Assembly (NCBI RefSeq): GCF_026196735.1
Contig: NZ_JAPHUF010000004.1
Coordinates: forward strand, 1-64,000
Length of the DNA stretch: 64,000 nt
DNA from: Sulfurimonas sp.
Lineage (GTDB): Bacteria; Campylobacterota; Campylobacteria; Campylobacterales; Sulfurimonadaceae
Reading direction: 5' to 3'
A program made the position numbers and the translations under genes. Below, piece after piece: positions 22,981 to 29,382 of this stretch; positions within the stretch are counted from its first letter, which is position 1; each line of letters begins with the position of its first letter. The notes under the pieces were generated by a model, which was not told where the DNA came from, did not search any database, and was given only the letters and a program-made list of their open reading frames with translations.

Positions 22981-23361
22981 ATGAAATTTGATATATGCGC
23001 ACCAATACTTGGCTTTGAAGATGTAAAACAAGTAACATTAGAAAAAATTGATGATATTTTTATGAAAATGCAATGTACGGACAATGAACATATTTCTTTT
23101 ACTTTGATAAATCCTTTTGTTCTTCGAGAGTATGATTTTGAACTTCCAGATAAAATAAGTAAAACTTTAGATGCAAACAAGAATTCTAATCTTCTTGTCT
23201 TAAATATTGTTCTTATACAAACGCCTATTGAAGACTCTGTTGTAAACTTTATTGGACCAATGATTTTTAACACTGATAACAACAGAGCTGTACAAATACT
23301 ATTGCCTGAATCCACAAAATACGGAGTTGCTGAGAAGATTTCTACTTTTTTAAAGAAGTAG
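22981..23361 (+). CDS. fliW: flagellar assembly factor FliW
   Basis: 126 residues. FliW binds flagellin and antagonises CsrA, coupling flagellin translation to filament assembly. Family signs are GFEDVKQVTLE near the start, ISFTLINPF, LVLNIVLIQTP and the C-terminal NFIGPMIFNTDNNRAVQILL. A TAAGGG ribosome site lies six bases before ATG, and a TATAAC box lies further up. The last 102 bases are present a second time at 24757-24861, beyond the Fic gene, so the locus was the target of an insertion or recombination. Confidence 0.93.
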   Translation: MKFDICAPILGFEDVKQVTLEKIDDIFMKMQCTDNEHISFTLINPFVLREYDFELPDKISKTLDANKNSNLLVLNIVLIQTPIEDSVVNFIGPMIFNTDNNRAVQILLPESTKYGVAEKISTFLKK

Positions 23362-23375
23362 AAACTATAACAAAA

Positions 23376-23484
23376 ATATCGCTATTCAACTCGCCAAATT
23401 TATCTTTTAAATTATTTATATTTCTTTTAAATCAATGTTATATAGGCTAATACAAAGTATTAATATATCGCCATTATACTCGCC
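23376..23484 (+). promoter_or_regulatory. repeated operator-like sites upstream of the Fic gene
   Basis: Two 20-base direct repeats, ATATCGCTATTCAACTCGCC (23376-23395) and ATATCGCCATTATACTCGCC (23465-23484), match at 17 of 20 positions. The second lies just upstream of a TATAAT box at 23497-23502. Their position suggests binding sites for a regulator, possibly the Fic protein itself through its C-terminal helix-turn-helix region. Function is inferred. Confidence 0.45.
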
Positions 23485-23496
23485 ATATAATTATGA

Positions 23497-23502
23497 TATA
23501 AT
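23497..23502 (+). promoter_or_regulatory. -10 box upstream of the Fic gene
   Basis: A perfect TATAAT, 27 bases before the preferred ATG at 23530. The ribosome site AAAAGGA lies between the two. No convincing -35 box is seen, and that space is occupied by the second operator-like repeat. Confidence 0.55.
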
Positions 23503-23529
23503 TTGTTTAAATATTACAAAAGGATGTTA

Positions 23530-24726
23530 ATGAACTTTACTCCGATAGCTCCTACAGATATAAATGGAAATATTAATTCTAGTCTTACATCTAAAGCTGA
23601 TGAACTTTTAATCCAAAGCGCTAAATTAACGGGAACACATACACCACAAATTATTCAAACTGTAAAAAACCTTTTATACACAGTCAATAGTTATTATTCC
23701 AACAAGATAGAATCACAAAGTACTCATATAATAGATATAGAAAGAGCGATGCAAAATGATTACTCTAAAGACACAAAAGAGAGAAACTTGCAAATACTTT
23801 CACTTGCTCACATAGAGGTTCAAAAAGAGTGTGAAAACTATTTTAAAAACACTCCAAATAGCACACCGTATAGCAAAGAATTCATTTTAAATATTCACAA
23901 AAGCTTTTATAGTAAAAAAGGTATGGAAGCATTTTTACATGTATCACATAATGATTTAGAAGGCATAATAGTCCCTGGAGCTATTCGTAAACAAAGTGTT
24001 AAAGTTGGAAACCATATAGCCCCAAGCTATGATAAAGTTGAAAGTTTAATGAATGAATTTGAACATCTTTATAACAAATCATTAAACTCAAGTAATGCTC
24101 TTAAACTGATTTATGCACTTTCGTCTCACCATAGACTAATGTGGATACACCCATTTTTAGATGGTAATGGTAGAACTGCCAGACTGGCGTTGGATGGGGC
24201 ATTTATAAGTATTGGCATGAGTGGCTATGGCATGTGGAATATATCGCGCGGACTTTCAAGAAATTCTCAAGAATATAAAAAATACCTCTCTCTCGCTGAT
24301 ATGCCACAACAAGGTCAGTTTGACGGTAAAGGCTCTCTCTCATCAAAAGCTTTATCGGAGTATGTGAATTTTATGCTTGATATTTCACTAGATCAGGTCT
24401 CTTTTATGAGTAAACATCTTAAACTGGATGCTCTTTCATCCAAGATTGAGTTATTTGTACAAAAAGCAGATGATGGCTTGCTAGATATAGAACCCCTGCC
24501 AAAACATAGCAATAAGATATTTCAATATTTACTGCTTAACGGCGAGTGTAAAAGAGGAAAAATCGCACAAATTATAGGAATGAAAGAGAGAACAGCCTCT
24601 AGGGTTACGGCTGAGCTATTAAAACGAAATTTTATAGAATCAGATTCAAAAGTATCTCCAATCAGATTAAAAATCGGAGCCTCCATGGCATCATTTCTTT
24701 TTCCTATGCTAGTTCCAGAAAAATAA
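23530..24726 (+). CDS. Fic-family protein with C-terminal winged-helix region
   Basis: 398 residues from ATG 23530, chosen because AAAAGGA lies 7 bases upstream. The full Fic active-site motif is present, HPFLDGNGRTAR with catalytic H207, so it should transfer AMP or another nucleotide part to target proteins. An N-terminal segment, SNKIES (residues 57-62), sits where class II Fic proteins have their inhibitory (S/T)xxxE(G/N) helix, with glutamate kept but serine as the last residue. The C-terminus (about 330-390, KRGKIAQIIGMKERTASRVTAEL) looks like a winged helix. The gene lies between two copies of the fliW 3' end, so it was probably acquired. Confidence 0.9.
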   Translation: MNFTPIAPTDINGNINSSLTSKADELLIQSAKLTGTHTPQIIQTVKNLLYTVNSYYSNKIESQSTHIIDIERAMQNDYSKDTKERNLQILSLAHIEVQKECENYFKNTPNSTPYSKEFILNIHKSFYSKKGMEAFLHVSHNDLEGIIVPGAIRKQSVKVGNHIAPSYDKVESLMNEFEHLYNKSLNSSNALKLIYALSSHHRLMWIHPFLDGNGRTARLALDGAFISIGMSGYGMWNISRGLSRNSQEYKKYLSLADMPQQGQFDGKGSLSSKALSEYVNFMLDISLDQVSFMSKHLKLDALSSKIELFVQKADDGLLDIEPLPKHSNKIFQYLLLNGECKRGKIAQIIGMKERTASRVTAELLKRNFIESDSKVSPIRLKIGASMASFLFPMLVPEK

Positions 24727-24730
24727 TATA

Positions 24731-24861
24731 GGCTCTGTAGTCAACTTATATGACCTATGATTTTTAACACCGACAACAACAGAGCTGTGCAAATACTATT
24801 GCCAGAATCCACAAAATACGGAGTTGCAGAGAAGATTTCTACTTTTTTAAATAATAAGTAA
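24731..24861 (+). pseudogene. second copy of the fliW 3' end (remnant)
   Basis: Bases 24757-24861 encode MIFNTDNNRAVQILLPESTK and the rest of the FliW C-terminus, ending STFLNNK instead of STFLKK. Up to the diverged last codons, five bases differ from fliW, all at third positions and all synonymous. Upstream, 24731-24756 still resembles fliW but has a one-base deletion and several changes, so the frame is broken. It begins directly after the Fic stop codon. No start signal is seen and it is not expected to be expressed. Confidence 0.85.
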
Positions 24862-24896
24862 TTTTTACATTTAAGAATTCACAATAAAAAATCATG

Positions 24897-24981
24897 TATA
24901 ATATAACAGAGTGATTTAACAATCTGCTACTGAGCCCTGTGTTTGTGTGCAGAAAATTTCCTTCCATCCAAGGGGTCTGTT
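24897..24981 (+). promoter_or_regulatory. promoter and leader of the large-protein/minor-pilin operon
   Basis: A TATAAT box at 24897-24902 is followed by a leader of about 70 bases that is richer in G and C than its surroundings, including a possible short hairpin closed by CTGC/GCAG, and then AAGGGG six bases before ATG 24982. I tried c-di-GMP and preQ1 riboswitch patterns by eye and saw no match. Confidence 0.45.
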
Positions 24982-27900
24982 ATGAATATTTTTACTAAAA
25001 AACTTTATTTCCCGCTGCTGTTTTTAACAATATTCTTTCCAACTTATATATTTGGTGCTGATGAATGTTCTAGTAGCGATTACAATTATTCTTTATCAGC
25101 TGCTTCTCCAACAACAACACATACTGTAGCAATGTCGGCGAATGAATCTATTAGCTACTATATACAGTCATCAGAGGCCGGAACTCTGACTATAACTACA
25201 AACAATGCTAACAATAAAATCAATTTAAATGGTTCAGAAAATAGCTGTCCAGCTGGAGTTGAATCTGGAACTACTTCTTTAGTATATACCCAATCCTTTG
25301 CTTTTGACATAAATATTGTTGTATTTGCAGATGGAGCTGCTACACATACATTAACAATTCAATTTACTCCTTTTGACTCATCTTCAGAAGGTCATCTAAC
25401 TAAATATGAAAATCCATTTTCAATTATTTATGGTGGTGCTGGAACAAATATATATGGAGATTACTCTTCTATAGCTTCTTCTGTACAATGTGTTGATAAT
25501 GGCGCTGGTGGATGTAATTATAACTATACTGGAGCACTATATAATGCTACAACAAAATATGAAAATAGCGTTGCAATTGCAACGATTCCGCTTAACTCAT
25601 CTACTGAAACTTTAAATTTACCTGTTGATATTGATGGATCAGATATTTTATATGCTGGGTTATATTGGCAAGGTAACATTACTGGTCCAGATTCTAATGA
25701 TTATGTAGTAGGAATAACTGGAAGAAATATTGTTTCACTTCTAGATTCAAGCGGTACAGTACACACTTTGACATCAGATGAACTTTGGTATCATGACTTT
25801 TGGGGAGATGGCACTGGTAGTGATGGAGGATATAGGTCTTTTTATCAAGGTTATAAAGATATAACGTCAATTGTACAAAATTCTTATGTAAAGGGAAATA
25901 TAAATTCATATACTGTTGGTAATATTAAATCAACAATAGGTTCCGATTATGGAACATACTTTTGGGCTGATGATATATATGCTTATAATGGCATTAGAAT
26001 TGGTTTTTGGGGAAATTGGAATTTAATTGTTGTTTATGAACACTCAAATGTCGGGGCATTATCTCCTCAACCAAAACCAAAAAATATTACTTTATTTCAG
26101 GGTTTTGATGCTCTTATTCCTCTTCAACAAGATAGCACTAAAAGTGTGAACCTTCCCTTAAGTGGATTCTTAACACCTTCATCAACACCAATTGAAGCAA
26201 AACTATTATTTTATGGTGCAGGGGCAGAAAAAGTACTGAATTATGATACATTTAAAATTCAAGATGGCACAACATCTAATTATATTGATCTGTCAAATGC
26301 TTTAAATCCTGTTGACAATGCTTTTAATGGCTCTGTAAGTAGTTTTGGTATTCCTATTGACCCTGCTATCAGTTACTATCCAGGTCTTGATAGTGATGAG
26401 TTTGATATATCTTTAGCTATGGTAATAAAACAGACATCAACAAGCTTAAGCTTAAGTGCTAAAAATGTAAGCGGTACAGGTGATCAAATTTTTCCTGGTC
26501 TCATAGCTTTTTCCACTGATGTATATGCACCAGAGTTTTGTTATGACTATGCTTATAAACAACAAGGCATATATTTTACTGAAGACAATAATGGAACACT
26601 AGATCCAAGAATATCTGGAGATGTTATAAGTGGTGAACCTATAGAAGTTAGTGTATTTATAAGAAACCTTGTTGATTCTGACATCGCTGTCACAGATATG
26701 TATGTCGATGTTTTAGATATCAATACAACACAAGCTACATATGTAACAAATACAACAAAACTTGCAAAAATTGGTGATTTAACTCCTACTGATTTGATTG
26801 ATGGCACCGATATTACTATAGGGACAAGTTCTATAGAGGATATTACAATTGGAACCATAGACTCTAACGAACATTTTTATATTTATTACAGTCTAGATCC
26901 TAAGGATAGTTCTATTGATATGCCAATTAATGTTCAGACAAGATATAATCTAGTTGTTGGTGGAGAAACTATCCCATATACACTAAAACTTGGTTCCGAG
27001 ATACCAATGTGTTCTTCCACTAACTTTACATATGAGCCAGAATATGGGTTATTTAATGTAGTTCATAATAGTTATTATAATTATGATACTGGAGGGGGTA
27101 ATAGGTATTATAACCTTCCAACACAAGTAACAAATAGAGAAGGTAATTTTAAGGTTATTGCGATGGACCCGGCTGATCTAAATGAACTGCAAGGGAAGTC
27201 AACTTCTGTTGCAGTTGAATTGATAGATGCCTCAGCATTTCATGACACTTATGCATCTTGCCAAGAAGAAGAAAGTTCTATTAGTGAAAAAGTACAAGTA
27301 TTTTTTGAGAACAATGCAACATCCGTTGCATTTAATCAAGCAGCACTACAAGATGCGATTAATGATGCTGTTACAAACTTAACTAGCACATCAGAGTTTT
27401 ACTCAATGGCAAGAGAAAATGTTGCTTTTAGAATCTCTTATGGTCTAACAAATGATGGTAACGATTCTCTGGTACAGCATGAATACGATTCATCAAATGA
27501 CGAGTTTAAAATACTAAACTTTACTCAACTTGTTCAAGATGTAGGAACTTGTGTACAAAGAGTAACTTACGACACAAGTCCTGTTAAAACCACAGAAAAT
27601 GTTGCCGTTGCATGTGGTAATGCTGGAACATTTATATCTAAAAAACATTACTATGCATGTTTAGAATGCCTTTATGGAATCAACACACGATTTGAGTGTT
27701 CAAGAGACAATTTTGCCATAAGACCCGAAGCATTTATGATTAAAATAAATGATCAAAACCAAACAAATCCATCTTCACAGCTTAGACTTGCTGATAGTGT
27801 ATCTGGTGTTGTTACCCCAGTAGCCACGGTTGTCGACTTGGCAGCTGGTTATGAGTATAATTTAGAAATAAACGCTACAAACCATTTAAACAACAACTCA

Positions 27901-29382
27901 TCCACAGGATACACAAAATCTTTTGACCCAATTCTAACTGACAATGTTGAATATACCTGGCAACCTAGTGGTGCTCCTACAGGATGTAATGATGACAATA
28001 ATCACTCAATTCCTATGAGATTTGTCAATGGTTCAGTTGATATAAACTCATCTCTTAATCAAGTTGGTGAGTATGGATTAAATATTACAGACACAACATG
28101 GACTATTGTTGATAATACACAGCCAGCTCACCATGTGGGTTCATACTTTTTAGGTGGAGCTGATTGTATTGCTAACAGCTCAACTACACAAGCTATTAAT
28201 TCCGGTACTTTAAATGGCTGTAATATAAGTTCCAATCATGATAGTAGTGGTTCCTCTTTAAAATATAGAGACTATAACTTAGAGTTTAATCCATATAAAT
28301 TCAATATAGGAATAACACCGTCACATGGTGAAAACAACAACACGATATTTGATGCAAATACTTTTATCTATATGTCTGACATGTCGCAAAGTCCAGAGAT
28401 GTCTTTTCATTTAAATGGCTGGATTGGTGCAGTTGGTTATGATGATTCAACCTTAAGTAATTTTGTAGACAACTGCTATGCAAAACCGGTCACTTTAACC
28501 ATAAATAAAAGCTTGGCTGACTCTAATGTAATTAATTATCAATACAATTTTCAAAATACAGACCCGGCGATAGTTGATAAAAATGGTACTATAAATGGCT
28601 TATCTGGTTTAATTAATTTAGCAACAAATGATTTTAATAAATCAAATAACGGTAATGTAAATACGGTCTTAAATCTAAATTTCGATAGAAATGTAACTAC
28701 TGTTTTTAATCCAGAAGAGTTGACATTTACTACATACGATGCAAACTGTACAACTCCTGCGAATTGTAGAATGAATGCTGATTTAGATTCAACACATGAA
28801 GCAGAAGGTTATCGTGATTTAAATAGAACAGACATAGCAAATAATAGAATAACTCTCAAGCATTACTACGGTCGTACACATGCATCAAGACAGAGATATG
28901 ACGGAAACACAGGAACAGCTAATATATACTATGAAGTATATTGTTTTGGCAGTATTAGCGGCAATACATGTAATCAGGCACTTCTTCAAAATCCTACAGG
29001 AACATTAAAAAGAACTGATGATATAAGATGGTTTATGAATGAAAATCACGATATCATAAATGACGGCAATGTTAGCATTGTTGTACAAAGAGGTGGAACA
29101 AACATCGCTGCTGATATTATAGATGCAACTGATAATCCTACTGGGAATCCATCTATCACCACTCTTAACTATGATGCAAGCAAAGGCTATCCATACAAAA
29201 CTATAATGCAAAACATTGCTTCAGGTTGGTTGATATACAACCAAGATGATCCAACTGCTACAAGAAATGAATTTGCTGTAGAGTTTGAAGCTCCAGGAAC
29301 TGGTTGGAGTGGCGAGCATGAAACAAATACTACTACTCAAGATGTAGGTGCAGTTAGAACAAATAGGAGAAGTAATTGGTAA
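24982..29382 (+). CDS. large secreted surface protein linked to minor pilins
   Basis: 1466 residues from ATG 24982, preceded by AAGGGG; the frame opens 13 codons earlier without a good start. A signal peptide ends near TYIFGA. The mature protein is rich in asparagine, threonine, serine and beta-prone sequence. Residues from about 30 to 130 resemble a small beta-sandwich (YYIQSSEAGTLTITT). A segment with ILYAGLYWQG recalls the A-LYW motif of large bacterial surface proteins. There are many cysteines and an acidic loop DNNGTLD. I do not recognise the whole protein. It overlaps the first minor-pilin gene by 7 bases, so it may be a tip adhesin comparable in position to PilY1. No membrane anchor or sorting signal is seen at the C-terminus. 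Confidence 0.75.
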   Translation: MNIFTKKLYFPLLFLTIFFPTYIFGADECSSSDYNYSLSAASPTTTHTVAMSANESISYYIQSSEAGTLTITTNNANNKINLNGSENSCPAGVESGTTSLVYTQSFAFDINIVVFADGAATHTLTIQFTPFDSSSEGHLTKYENPFSIIYGGAGTNIYGDYSSIASSVQCVDNGAGGCNYNYTGALYNATTKYENSVAIATIPLNSSTETLNLPVDIDGSDILYAGLYWQGNITGPDSNDYVVGITGRNIVSLLDSSGTVHTLTSDELWYHDFWGDGTGSDGGYRSFYQGYKDITSIVQNSYVKGNINSYTVGNIKSTIGSDYGTYFWADDIYAYNGIRIGFWGNWNLIVVYEHSNVGALSPQPKPKNITLFQGFDALIPLQQDSTKSVNLPLSGFLTPSSTPIEAKLLFYGAGAEKVLNYDTFKIQDGTTSNYIDLSNALNPVDNAFNGSVSSFGIPIDPAISYYPGLDSDEFDISLAMVIKQTSTSLSLSAKNVSGTGDQIFPGLIAFSTDVYAPEFCYDYAYKQQGIYFTEDNNGTLDPRISGDVISGEPIEVSVFIRNLVDSDIAVTDMYVDVLDINTTQATYVTNTTKLAKIGDLTPTDLIDGTDITIGTSSIEDITIGTIDSNEHFYIYYSLDPKDSSIDMPINVQTRYNLVVGGETIPYTLKLGSEIPMCSSTNFTYEPEYGLFNVVHNSYYNYDTGGGNRYYNLPTQVTNREGNFKVIAMDPADLNELQGKSTSVAVELIDASAFHDTYASCQEEESSISEKVQVFFENNATSVAFNQAALQDAINDAVTNLTSTSEFYSMARENVAFRISYGLTNDGNDSLVQHEYDSSNDEFKILNFTQLVQDVGTCVQRVTYDTSPVKTTENVAVACGNAGTFISKKHYYACLECLYGINTRFECSRDNFAIRPEAFMIKINDQNQTNPSSQLRLADSVSGVVTPVATVVDLAAGYEYNLEINATNHLNNNSSTGYTKSFDPILTDNVEYTWQPSGAPTGCNDDNNHSIPMRFVNGSVDINSSLNQVGEYGLNITDTTWTIVDNTQPAHHVGSYFLGGADCIANSSTTQAINSGTLNGCNISSNHDSSGSSLKYRDYNLEFNPYKFNIGITPSHGENNNTIFDANTFIYMSDMSQSPEMSFHLNGWIGAVGYDDSTLSNFVDNCYAKPVTLTINKSLADSNVINYQYNFQNTDPAIVDKNGTINGLSGLINLATNDFNKSNNGNVNTVLNLNFDRNVTTVFNPEELTFTTYDANCTTPANCRMNADLDSTHEAEGYRDLNRTDIANNRITLKHYYGRTHASRQRYDGNTGTANIYYEVYCFGSISGNTCNQALLQNPTGTLKRTDDIRWFMNENHDIINDGNVSIVVQRGGTNIAADIIDATDNPTGNPSITTLNYDASKGYPYKTIMQNIASGWLIYNQDDPTATRNEFAVEFEAPGTGWSGEHETNTTTQDVGAVRTNRRSNW

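Follow-up and report, generated by a model that had tools for sequence, protein, structure and literature searches.

Linear DNA that enters a bacterial cell can be joined to the chromosome by one homologous and one illegitimate recombination event, a process termed HFIR that has been described for transformation (PMC3240628). Transfer hotspots with few mobility genes are reported to be commoner in transformable species (PMC5635113). HEPN/MNT modules have been reported as toxin-antitoxin systems (PMC7641770), and the Fic proteins of Campylobacter fetus have also been described to act as toxin-antitoxin systems (PMC5651007). Fic proteins of class II are defined by an N-terminal (S/T)xxxE(G/N) motif (PMC5651007), and CbFic2 is a class II member with a C-terminal HTH (PMC10628234).

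The locus considered here lies in a Sulfurimonas genome, within a stretch of 64,000 nucleotides that was analysed as a whole and is called the window. Its two proposed joins, one homologous and one illegitimate, are those of HFIR; the published cases come from transformation of three genera and from E. coli conjugation (PMC3240628), whereas here the process is deduced from one natural genome, in which the anchor gene's own 3' end was left behind. Like the mobile-element-free transfer hotspots, the locus has variable genes between conserved borders and no integrase on the contig; it differs from these hotspots, which recombine at flanking core genes, in a content that is mostly of toxin-antitoxin type (PMC5635113). 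Our best explanation of the whole, which we regard as rather likely, is that a relative's fliW-fic fragment was acquired by HFIR and encodes a self-inhibited, self-repressing Fic AMP-transferase. The event is of a known kind, at a site that we have not found described: a literature search yielded no description of a hotspot behind fliW. Read in this way, the locus is a natural record of a gene gained with no mobile element at the site, in which the old and the new anchor end stand side by side.

Organization of the fliW-fic locus

A first-pass annotation of this DNA had placed a Fic gene behind fliW and the end of fliW a second time beyond it, which Pfam matches and a self-comparison confirm. 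The features are, in order:

22981..23361, + strand: fliW, intact, carrying end copy 1 (126 aa; Pfam FliW PF02623, residues 6-119, 1.9e-28)
23260..23361, + strand: fliW end copy 1, interpreted as the incoming (donor) end; its last 24 nt are those of fliW in genome G104, which also has fic
23378..23396, + strand: operator-like repeat O1 in the fic promoter; 16/19 nt equal to O2, 89 nt apart
23467..23485, + strand: operator-like repeat O2, just 5' of a -10-like box (23492-23505); 16/19 nt equal to O1
23530..24726, + strand: fic, Fic-domain protein (398 aa; PF02661, 4.4e-15; PADLOC SoFic, 1.9e-28, residues 19-371)
23692..23715, + strand: codons for YYSNKIES, an inhibitory-type motif; S and E of SNxIE in 22/22 aligned sequences
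24148..24174, + strand: codons for HPFLDGNGR, the Fic motif (residue 207)
24502..24651, + strand: probable C-terminal winged-helix region (weak HTH-type matches: NCBIfam 7e-4, below cut-off; PADLOC CasR 5e-5)
24727..24732, + strand: candidate right junction, with ATAG common to fic 3' flanks and relatives' fliW (sequence comparison)
24730..24756, + strand: broken stretch of resident fliW, with a base missing and TGA
24757..24861, + strand: fliW end copy 2, interpreted as the resident end; the normal fliW-to-operon spacer comes next
24862..24981, + strand: spacer and leader ahead of the pilin operon, as in empty slots (comparison with relatives)
24982..29382, + strand: large first gene of the pseudopilin operon, the slot's right border (synteny in relatives)

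The FliW domain is of full length in the window's fliW (PF02623). The repeat of its end extends over 126 nt at 90% identity (E 9e-44; self-comparison, fliW into the next gene), far above chance, and the two ends agree in 32/32 residues (93-124, tblastn). The second end stands as annotated, except that it measures 105 nt and not 102. Five differences, all silent and in third positions, separate the ends in codons 94-123 (30 codons), as had been noted; the synonymous pattern does not hold for the final codons, which read FLKK and stop in copy 1 versus FLNNK and stop in copy 2. Homology reaches about 27 nt 5' of 24757 (24730-24756), where one base is missing, GGA has become TGA and the remaining differences fall mostly in third positions, in keeping with the frameshifted, diverged segment reported ahead of the copy.

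Rfam gave no match in 23300-25100, and the large pilin-operon gene (24982..29382) none in Pfam or NCBIfam. In base composition fic does not stand out as foreign (0.338; pieces of 1.2 kb average 0.343, and fic ranks 42/105). The absence of an integrase was borne out: no integrase gene lies at the insert, and the Pfam phage integrase family PF00589 has no match on this contig (C17) and nine on the genome's other contigs.

The slot behind fliW in relatives

The genus set comprises 135 genomes, 127 of them with some fliW match. The family of the window's fliW, delimited at an identity of at least 57%, occurs in 83 genomes besides the window; 75 loci were fetched, and eight were left out because no more than about 250 nt of contig remain behind fliW. 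Their contigs (G075, G078, G099, G039, G097, G071, G090, G085) end as if the assembly graph branches there, and strain variation at the slot may be the cause. One fetched locus, L175, lacks any sequence beyond fliW.

Typically, lon and bamD precede fliW, and a short spacer separates fliW from the large first gene of the pseudopilin operon (the gene names lon and recG at this locus are our assumption). With the right border of the slot set at the first forward frame of at least 580 codons, 55 slots are whole, and 43 of these measure at most 400 nt. Relatives with an empty slot have the arrangement that had been predicted, a single fliW end, a short spacer and the operon. In the window, copy 2 leads into 120 nt of typical spacer, after which the operon begins, as in these relatives; copy 2 therefore occupies the position of a resident fliW end, and copy 1 together with fic is the likely incoming piece.

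A tblastn search with the fliW tail found no second end in any relative's fetched stretch (75 loci). It had been considered that all relatives might carry both ends, or that the copy might stem from a separate, truncated fliW-like gene. Neither outcome was seen: the copy equals its own fliW in 32/32 residues, and the genus's second fliW family is only about 40-49% identical, which speaks against such an origin. The same observations support the earlier proposal of a cassette with a replacement fliW end that evolved in a related strain. The second family lies elsewhere in many Sulfurimonas genomes, some of which have only that family.

Which end belongs to which strain cannot be read from phylogeny. 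The closest relative's fliW is 81% identical at the protein level, and the 90-nt tails match the nearest relatives at 72 (copy 1) and 74 positions (copy 2), too evenly for the two ends to be placed; of 74 relatives, 33 are closer to copy 2, 20 to copy 1 and 21 to neither. The 102 nt of fliW end are too little to tell donor from recipient. Contig breaks near fliW codons 93-94 in L099 and L102 were considered as a common breakpoint and rejected: genome searches revealed that the GH10 fliW lies on two contigs that lack its middle part, and they yielded no close fic for G124.

Integrase islands classically leave as their footprint a gene with a replaced 3' end, and a site-specific element targeting the fliW 3' end could have brought the replacement end and later lost its integrase. 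This footprint is matched here, but the contig has no integrase match, the other loci searched have no second fliW end, and the relatives' slots hold short gene pairs; where border repeats were seen, they lie in spacer or cargo and not in fliW. We consider such an element highly improbable. Of the two mechanisms that had been left open by the first-pass annotation, homologous recombination with a relative fits better than the loss of a former integrase.

Two probable lineages of fliW ends

Over the 30 codons the ends show a dN of 0 and a dS of 0.31, which is about the lon dS of the species pair G104-G124 (0.29). Five random changes would all be silent with a P of 0.0005 (equal rates) to 0.0016 (transitions favoured), values that still apply if all five changes are placed on copy 2. 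With the closest relatives, G004 and G015, as outgroups, three changes are assigned to copy 1, the other two being ambiguous.

These values bear on the view that the fliW end was duplicated locally, fic was inserted between the copies and copy 2 is decaying in place. The closeness of the repeats, their 90% identity and the broken stretch ahead of copy 2 agree with such a course; the exclusively silent differences in codons 94-123 do not, and neither does the number of changes. Since a local duplication, a decaying copy 2 should have gathered about 14-18 changes in 90 nt, yet no more than two are attributed to it (P of a count of two or less, 1e-4 to 2e-6 under neutral decay, the silent sites of the outgroups being nearly saturated and the polarity weak). 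That fic itself comes from another species, as set out below, is a further point against it. The silent differences speak against a simple duplication, which we judge very unlikely, and local duplication and integrase insertion both fit poorly and are disfavoured. Judged by their codons, the two diverged ends are most likely those of two lineages, not the product of one duplication.

Transfer of fic between species

At a protein identity of at least 90%, fic occurs in three genomes among the matches listed for the 135 genus genomes, namely its own, G104 (94%) and G038 (91%), and in each it lies directly behind fliW. The dS of fic is 0.62 (window-G104), 0.59 (window-G038) and 0.30 (G104-G038). 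For the same pairs in this order, lon gives 1.68, saturation and 1.78, and bamD 2.68, saturation and 2.10; the dS of fliW is saturated in all three. Because these dS values for fic are far below those of its neighbours while all three genes stand behind fliW, fic is, by this comparison, a gene that was transferred between species and kept the same address. Five cousins at 73-76% identity were not seen beside fliW (neighbours were listed for all but the G105 copy), and one cousin (73%) resides on an 82-kb Sulfurimonas aquatica plasmid. In a family-wide search, 10/228 genomes passed E 1e-150 for fic. In G104 and G038 a whole fliW precedes the gene and the operon comes after it; a second fliW end is absent there.

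A circular molecule, either a plasmid or an excised circle, that carried a 3' piece of fliW plus fic could have entered by a single crossover in fliW, yielding a hybrid fliW, the cargo and a truncated second end. Its topology is identical to the observed order, and the plasmid-borne cousin of Sulfurimonas aquatica lends it some colour. Against it, no plasmid gene is left between the two ends, G104 and G038 lack a second end, and the window has the fliW-fic spacer in common with G104; given that arrangement and that spacer, a chromosomal fliW-fic fragment is simpler. We therefore regard a circle as unlikely.

In the relatives G004 and G015 (L103, L105), three small pseudopilin genes are nearly identical (dS 0 to 0.13, vs 0.60 for lon); from these values, the pilin operon behind fliW seems itself to have been exchanged between the two.

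Proposed joining of the fragment to the chromosome

The insert most likely arose when DNA of a close relative recombined with the chromosome, transformation being the probable route. A DNA fragment comprising fliW and fic would have been taken up from a close Sulfurimonas relative and joined to the chromosome. The left join would be a homologous recombination event at some point within or upstream of fliW, a reading with which the divergence of the two fliW ends and the transfer of fic agree. The window and G104 are identical in the last 24 nt of fliW and in 136/170 aligned columns of the fliW-fic spacer. Within the tail, G104 agrees with copy 2 and not with copy 1 at four of the five sites that differ, so the donor was not G104-like across the whole tail.

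The right join would be illegitimate, a few bases behind fic, onto the resident fliW. The sequence 3' of fic is TAAAATAGAT in G104 and G038 and TAATATAGGCTCTG in the window, and fliW of L099 and G104 reads ATAGAGAACTC at the matching point. The four-base match ATAG at the junction is short and blurred by later changes, and is possibly the join site. The outcome would be a working fliW with the donor's end, a fic gene with its own promoter and a stranded resident end, and we infer from this order an HFIR event at a hotspot that gathers toxin-antitoxin-type genes. The window's genome has a ComEC-type gene; our literature search found no paper on transformation of Sulfurimonas.

G038 offers a comparable footprint on the other side of the slot. 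There, the pilin-operon spacer is present twice, behind fic and again ahead of the operon, with a ParE-type gene in between; the copy behind fic equals the G104 flank in 55/57 nt and its own second copy in 51/57. The slots of L106, L142, L146, L152, L157, L166 and L169 have shorter repeats, some of them inside the cargo, and those of L130 and L151 have weaker ones.

The Fic protein and its promoter

The protein carries the Fic AMP-transferase motif HPFx[D/E]GN[G/K]R as HPFLDGNGR. Compared with the class II motif (S/T)xxxE(G/N), its SNKIES keeps the S and the E, as do all 22 aligned sequences, while the final G/N is present in 1/22 (a canonical EG). Its best solved relatives are FICD entries, which cover the Fic core only, and the NCBIfam matches to SoFic, mobile mystery protein B and HTH families are below cut-off. 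A C-terminal winged-helix DNA-binding domain is probable from the HTH-type matches.

With CbFic2 and SoFic the protein shares the N-terminal inhibitory-type motif, HPFxDGNGR and, by weak matches only, a C-terminal HTH (PMC10628234). It differs from CbFic2 in that the inhibitory-type motif ends in ES or EA in 21/22 aligned sequences, not in EG or EN, and in its paired promoter repeats, CbFic2 having been assayed with random DNA (PMC10628234). The spacing of these repeats is 87-91 nt in 17/22 upstream regions (best-pair search, without a chance control). The Fic network of C. fetus likewise features toxin-antitoxin-type Fic proteins in a related group, but with partner proteins, whereas here a lone gene stands without a neighbouring partner (PMC5651007).

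No separate antitoxin gene was seen adjoining fic, and inhibition would be internal: the predicted AMP-transferase looks to be kept inhibited by its own N-terminal motif. Its C-terminal domain would repress the gene's own promoter through the two repeats 89 nt apart. Owing to this predicted internal inhibition, the probable DNA-binding domain and the paired promoter repeats, the protein is more readily understood as cargo of a toxin-antitoxin-like kind than as a partner of the flagellum.

A toxin-antitoxin hotspot behind fliW

Among the slot genes scanned, toxin-antitoxin-type families, Fic included, lie behind fliW in 19/75 relatives. The families counted are nucleotidyltransferase, HepT-like, HipA, ParE, YafQ, PIN and MazF-like (all by Pfam matches above cut-off), and Fic was added by identity for G104 and G038; the 19 include L157, with another gene in between, and L177, only just over cut-off. 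Two further loci, L142 and L169, have matches of this type below cut-off. Other slots contain a rhodanese protein (L168), Cas6 (L137) or, where the neighbourhood differs, other genes.

Content is variable between conserved borders. Slots longer than 400 nt number 12/55 behind fliW vs 4/154 in six neighbouring slots (P 3e-5, the locus sets overlapping in genomes); set against the rr-lon slot alone (3/29 over 400 nt), the fliW slot shows no significant difference (P 0.24). Among 148 HipA matches in the genus, four are situated at most 4 kb behind fliW vs 0.28 expected (P 2e-4), and for HepT-like proteins at least 5/249 among the matches listed are behind fliW vs 0.46 expected (P 1e-4; two in one genome, one being L157).

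The earlier hint at a functional link between the Fic enzyme and the neighbouring flagellar regulator finds no support. Whatever the mechanism of insertion, fic might be retained behind fliW through an action on flagellar regulation, and the genus's three closest fic genes do all stand there. In other species, however, unrelated toxin-antitoxin genes fill this slot; the cousins at 73-76% were not seen adjoining fliW, and fic has a promoter-like region of its own. Retention for flagellar reasons strikes us as very improbable; the adjacency of fliW and fic is probably accidental as far as flagella are concerned, and the case cautions against inferring function from such a neighbourhood.

We put forward, as a tentative and still doubtful generalization, that the fliW-pilin junction might serve as an integrase-free trading post for toxin-antitoxin genes, in which the cargo would carry along border scraps, of the fliW end on one side and of the pilin promoter on the other, that act as homology arms, transformation would redeliver the genes repeatedly to one address and self-addicting cargo would be kept. 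As a genus-wide site that collects toxin-antitoxin and Fic genes, the slot could help to study the reasons for the spread of such genes and the part of transformation in it.

A leader pattern before the pilin operon matches only 7/55 slots, with no Rfam match; the leader ahead of the large pilin-operon gene itself (window 24925-24981, CTGAGCCC...TGTGTGCA) recurs in some relatives. The 3.3-kb slot of L146 (G055) has several HEPN/MNT-type genes in a row, and a 224-nt repeat at 88% identity covers part of its nucleotidyltransferase gene.
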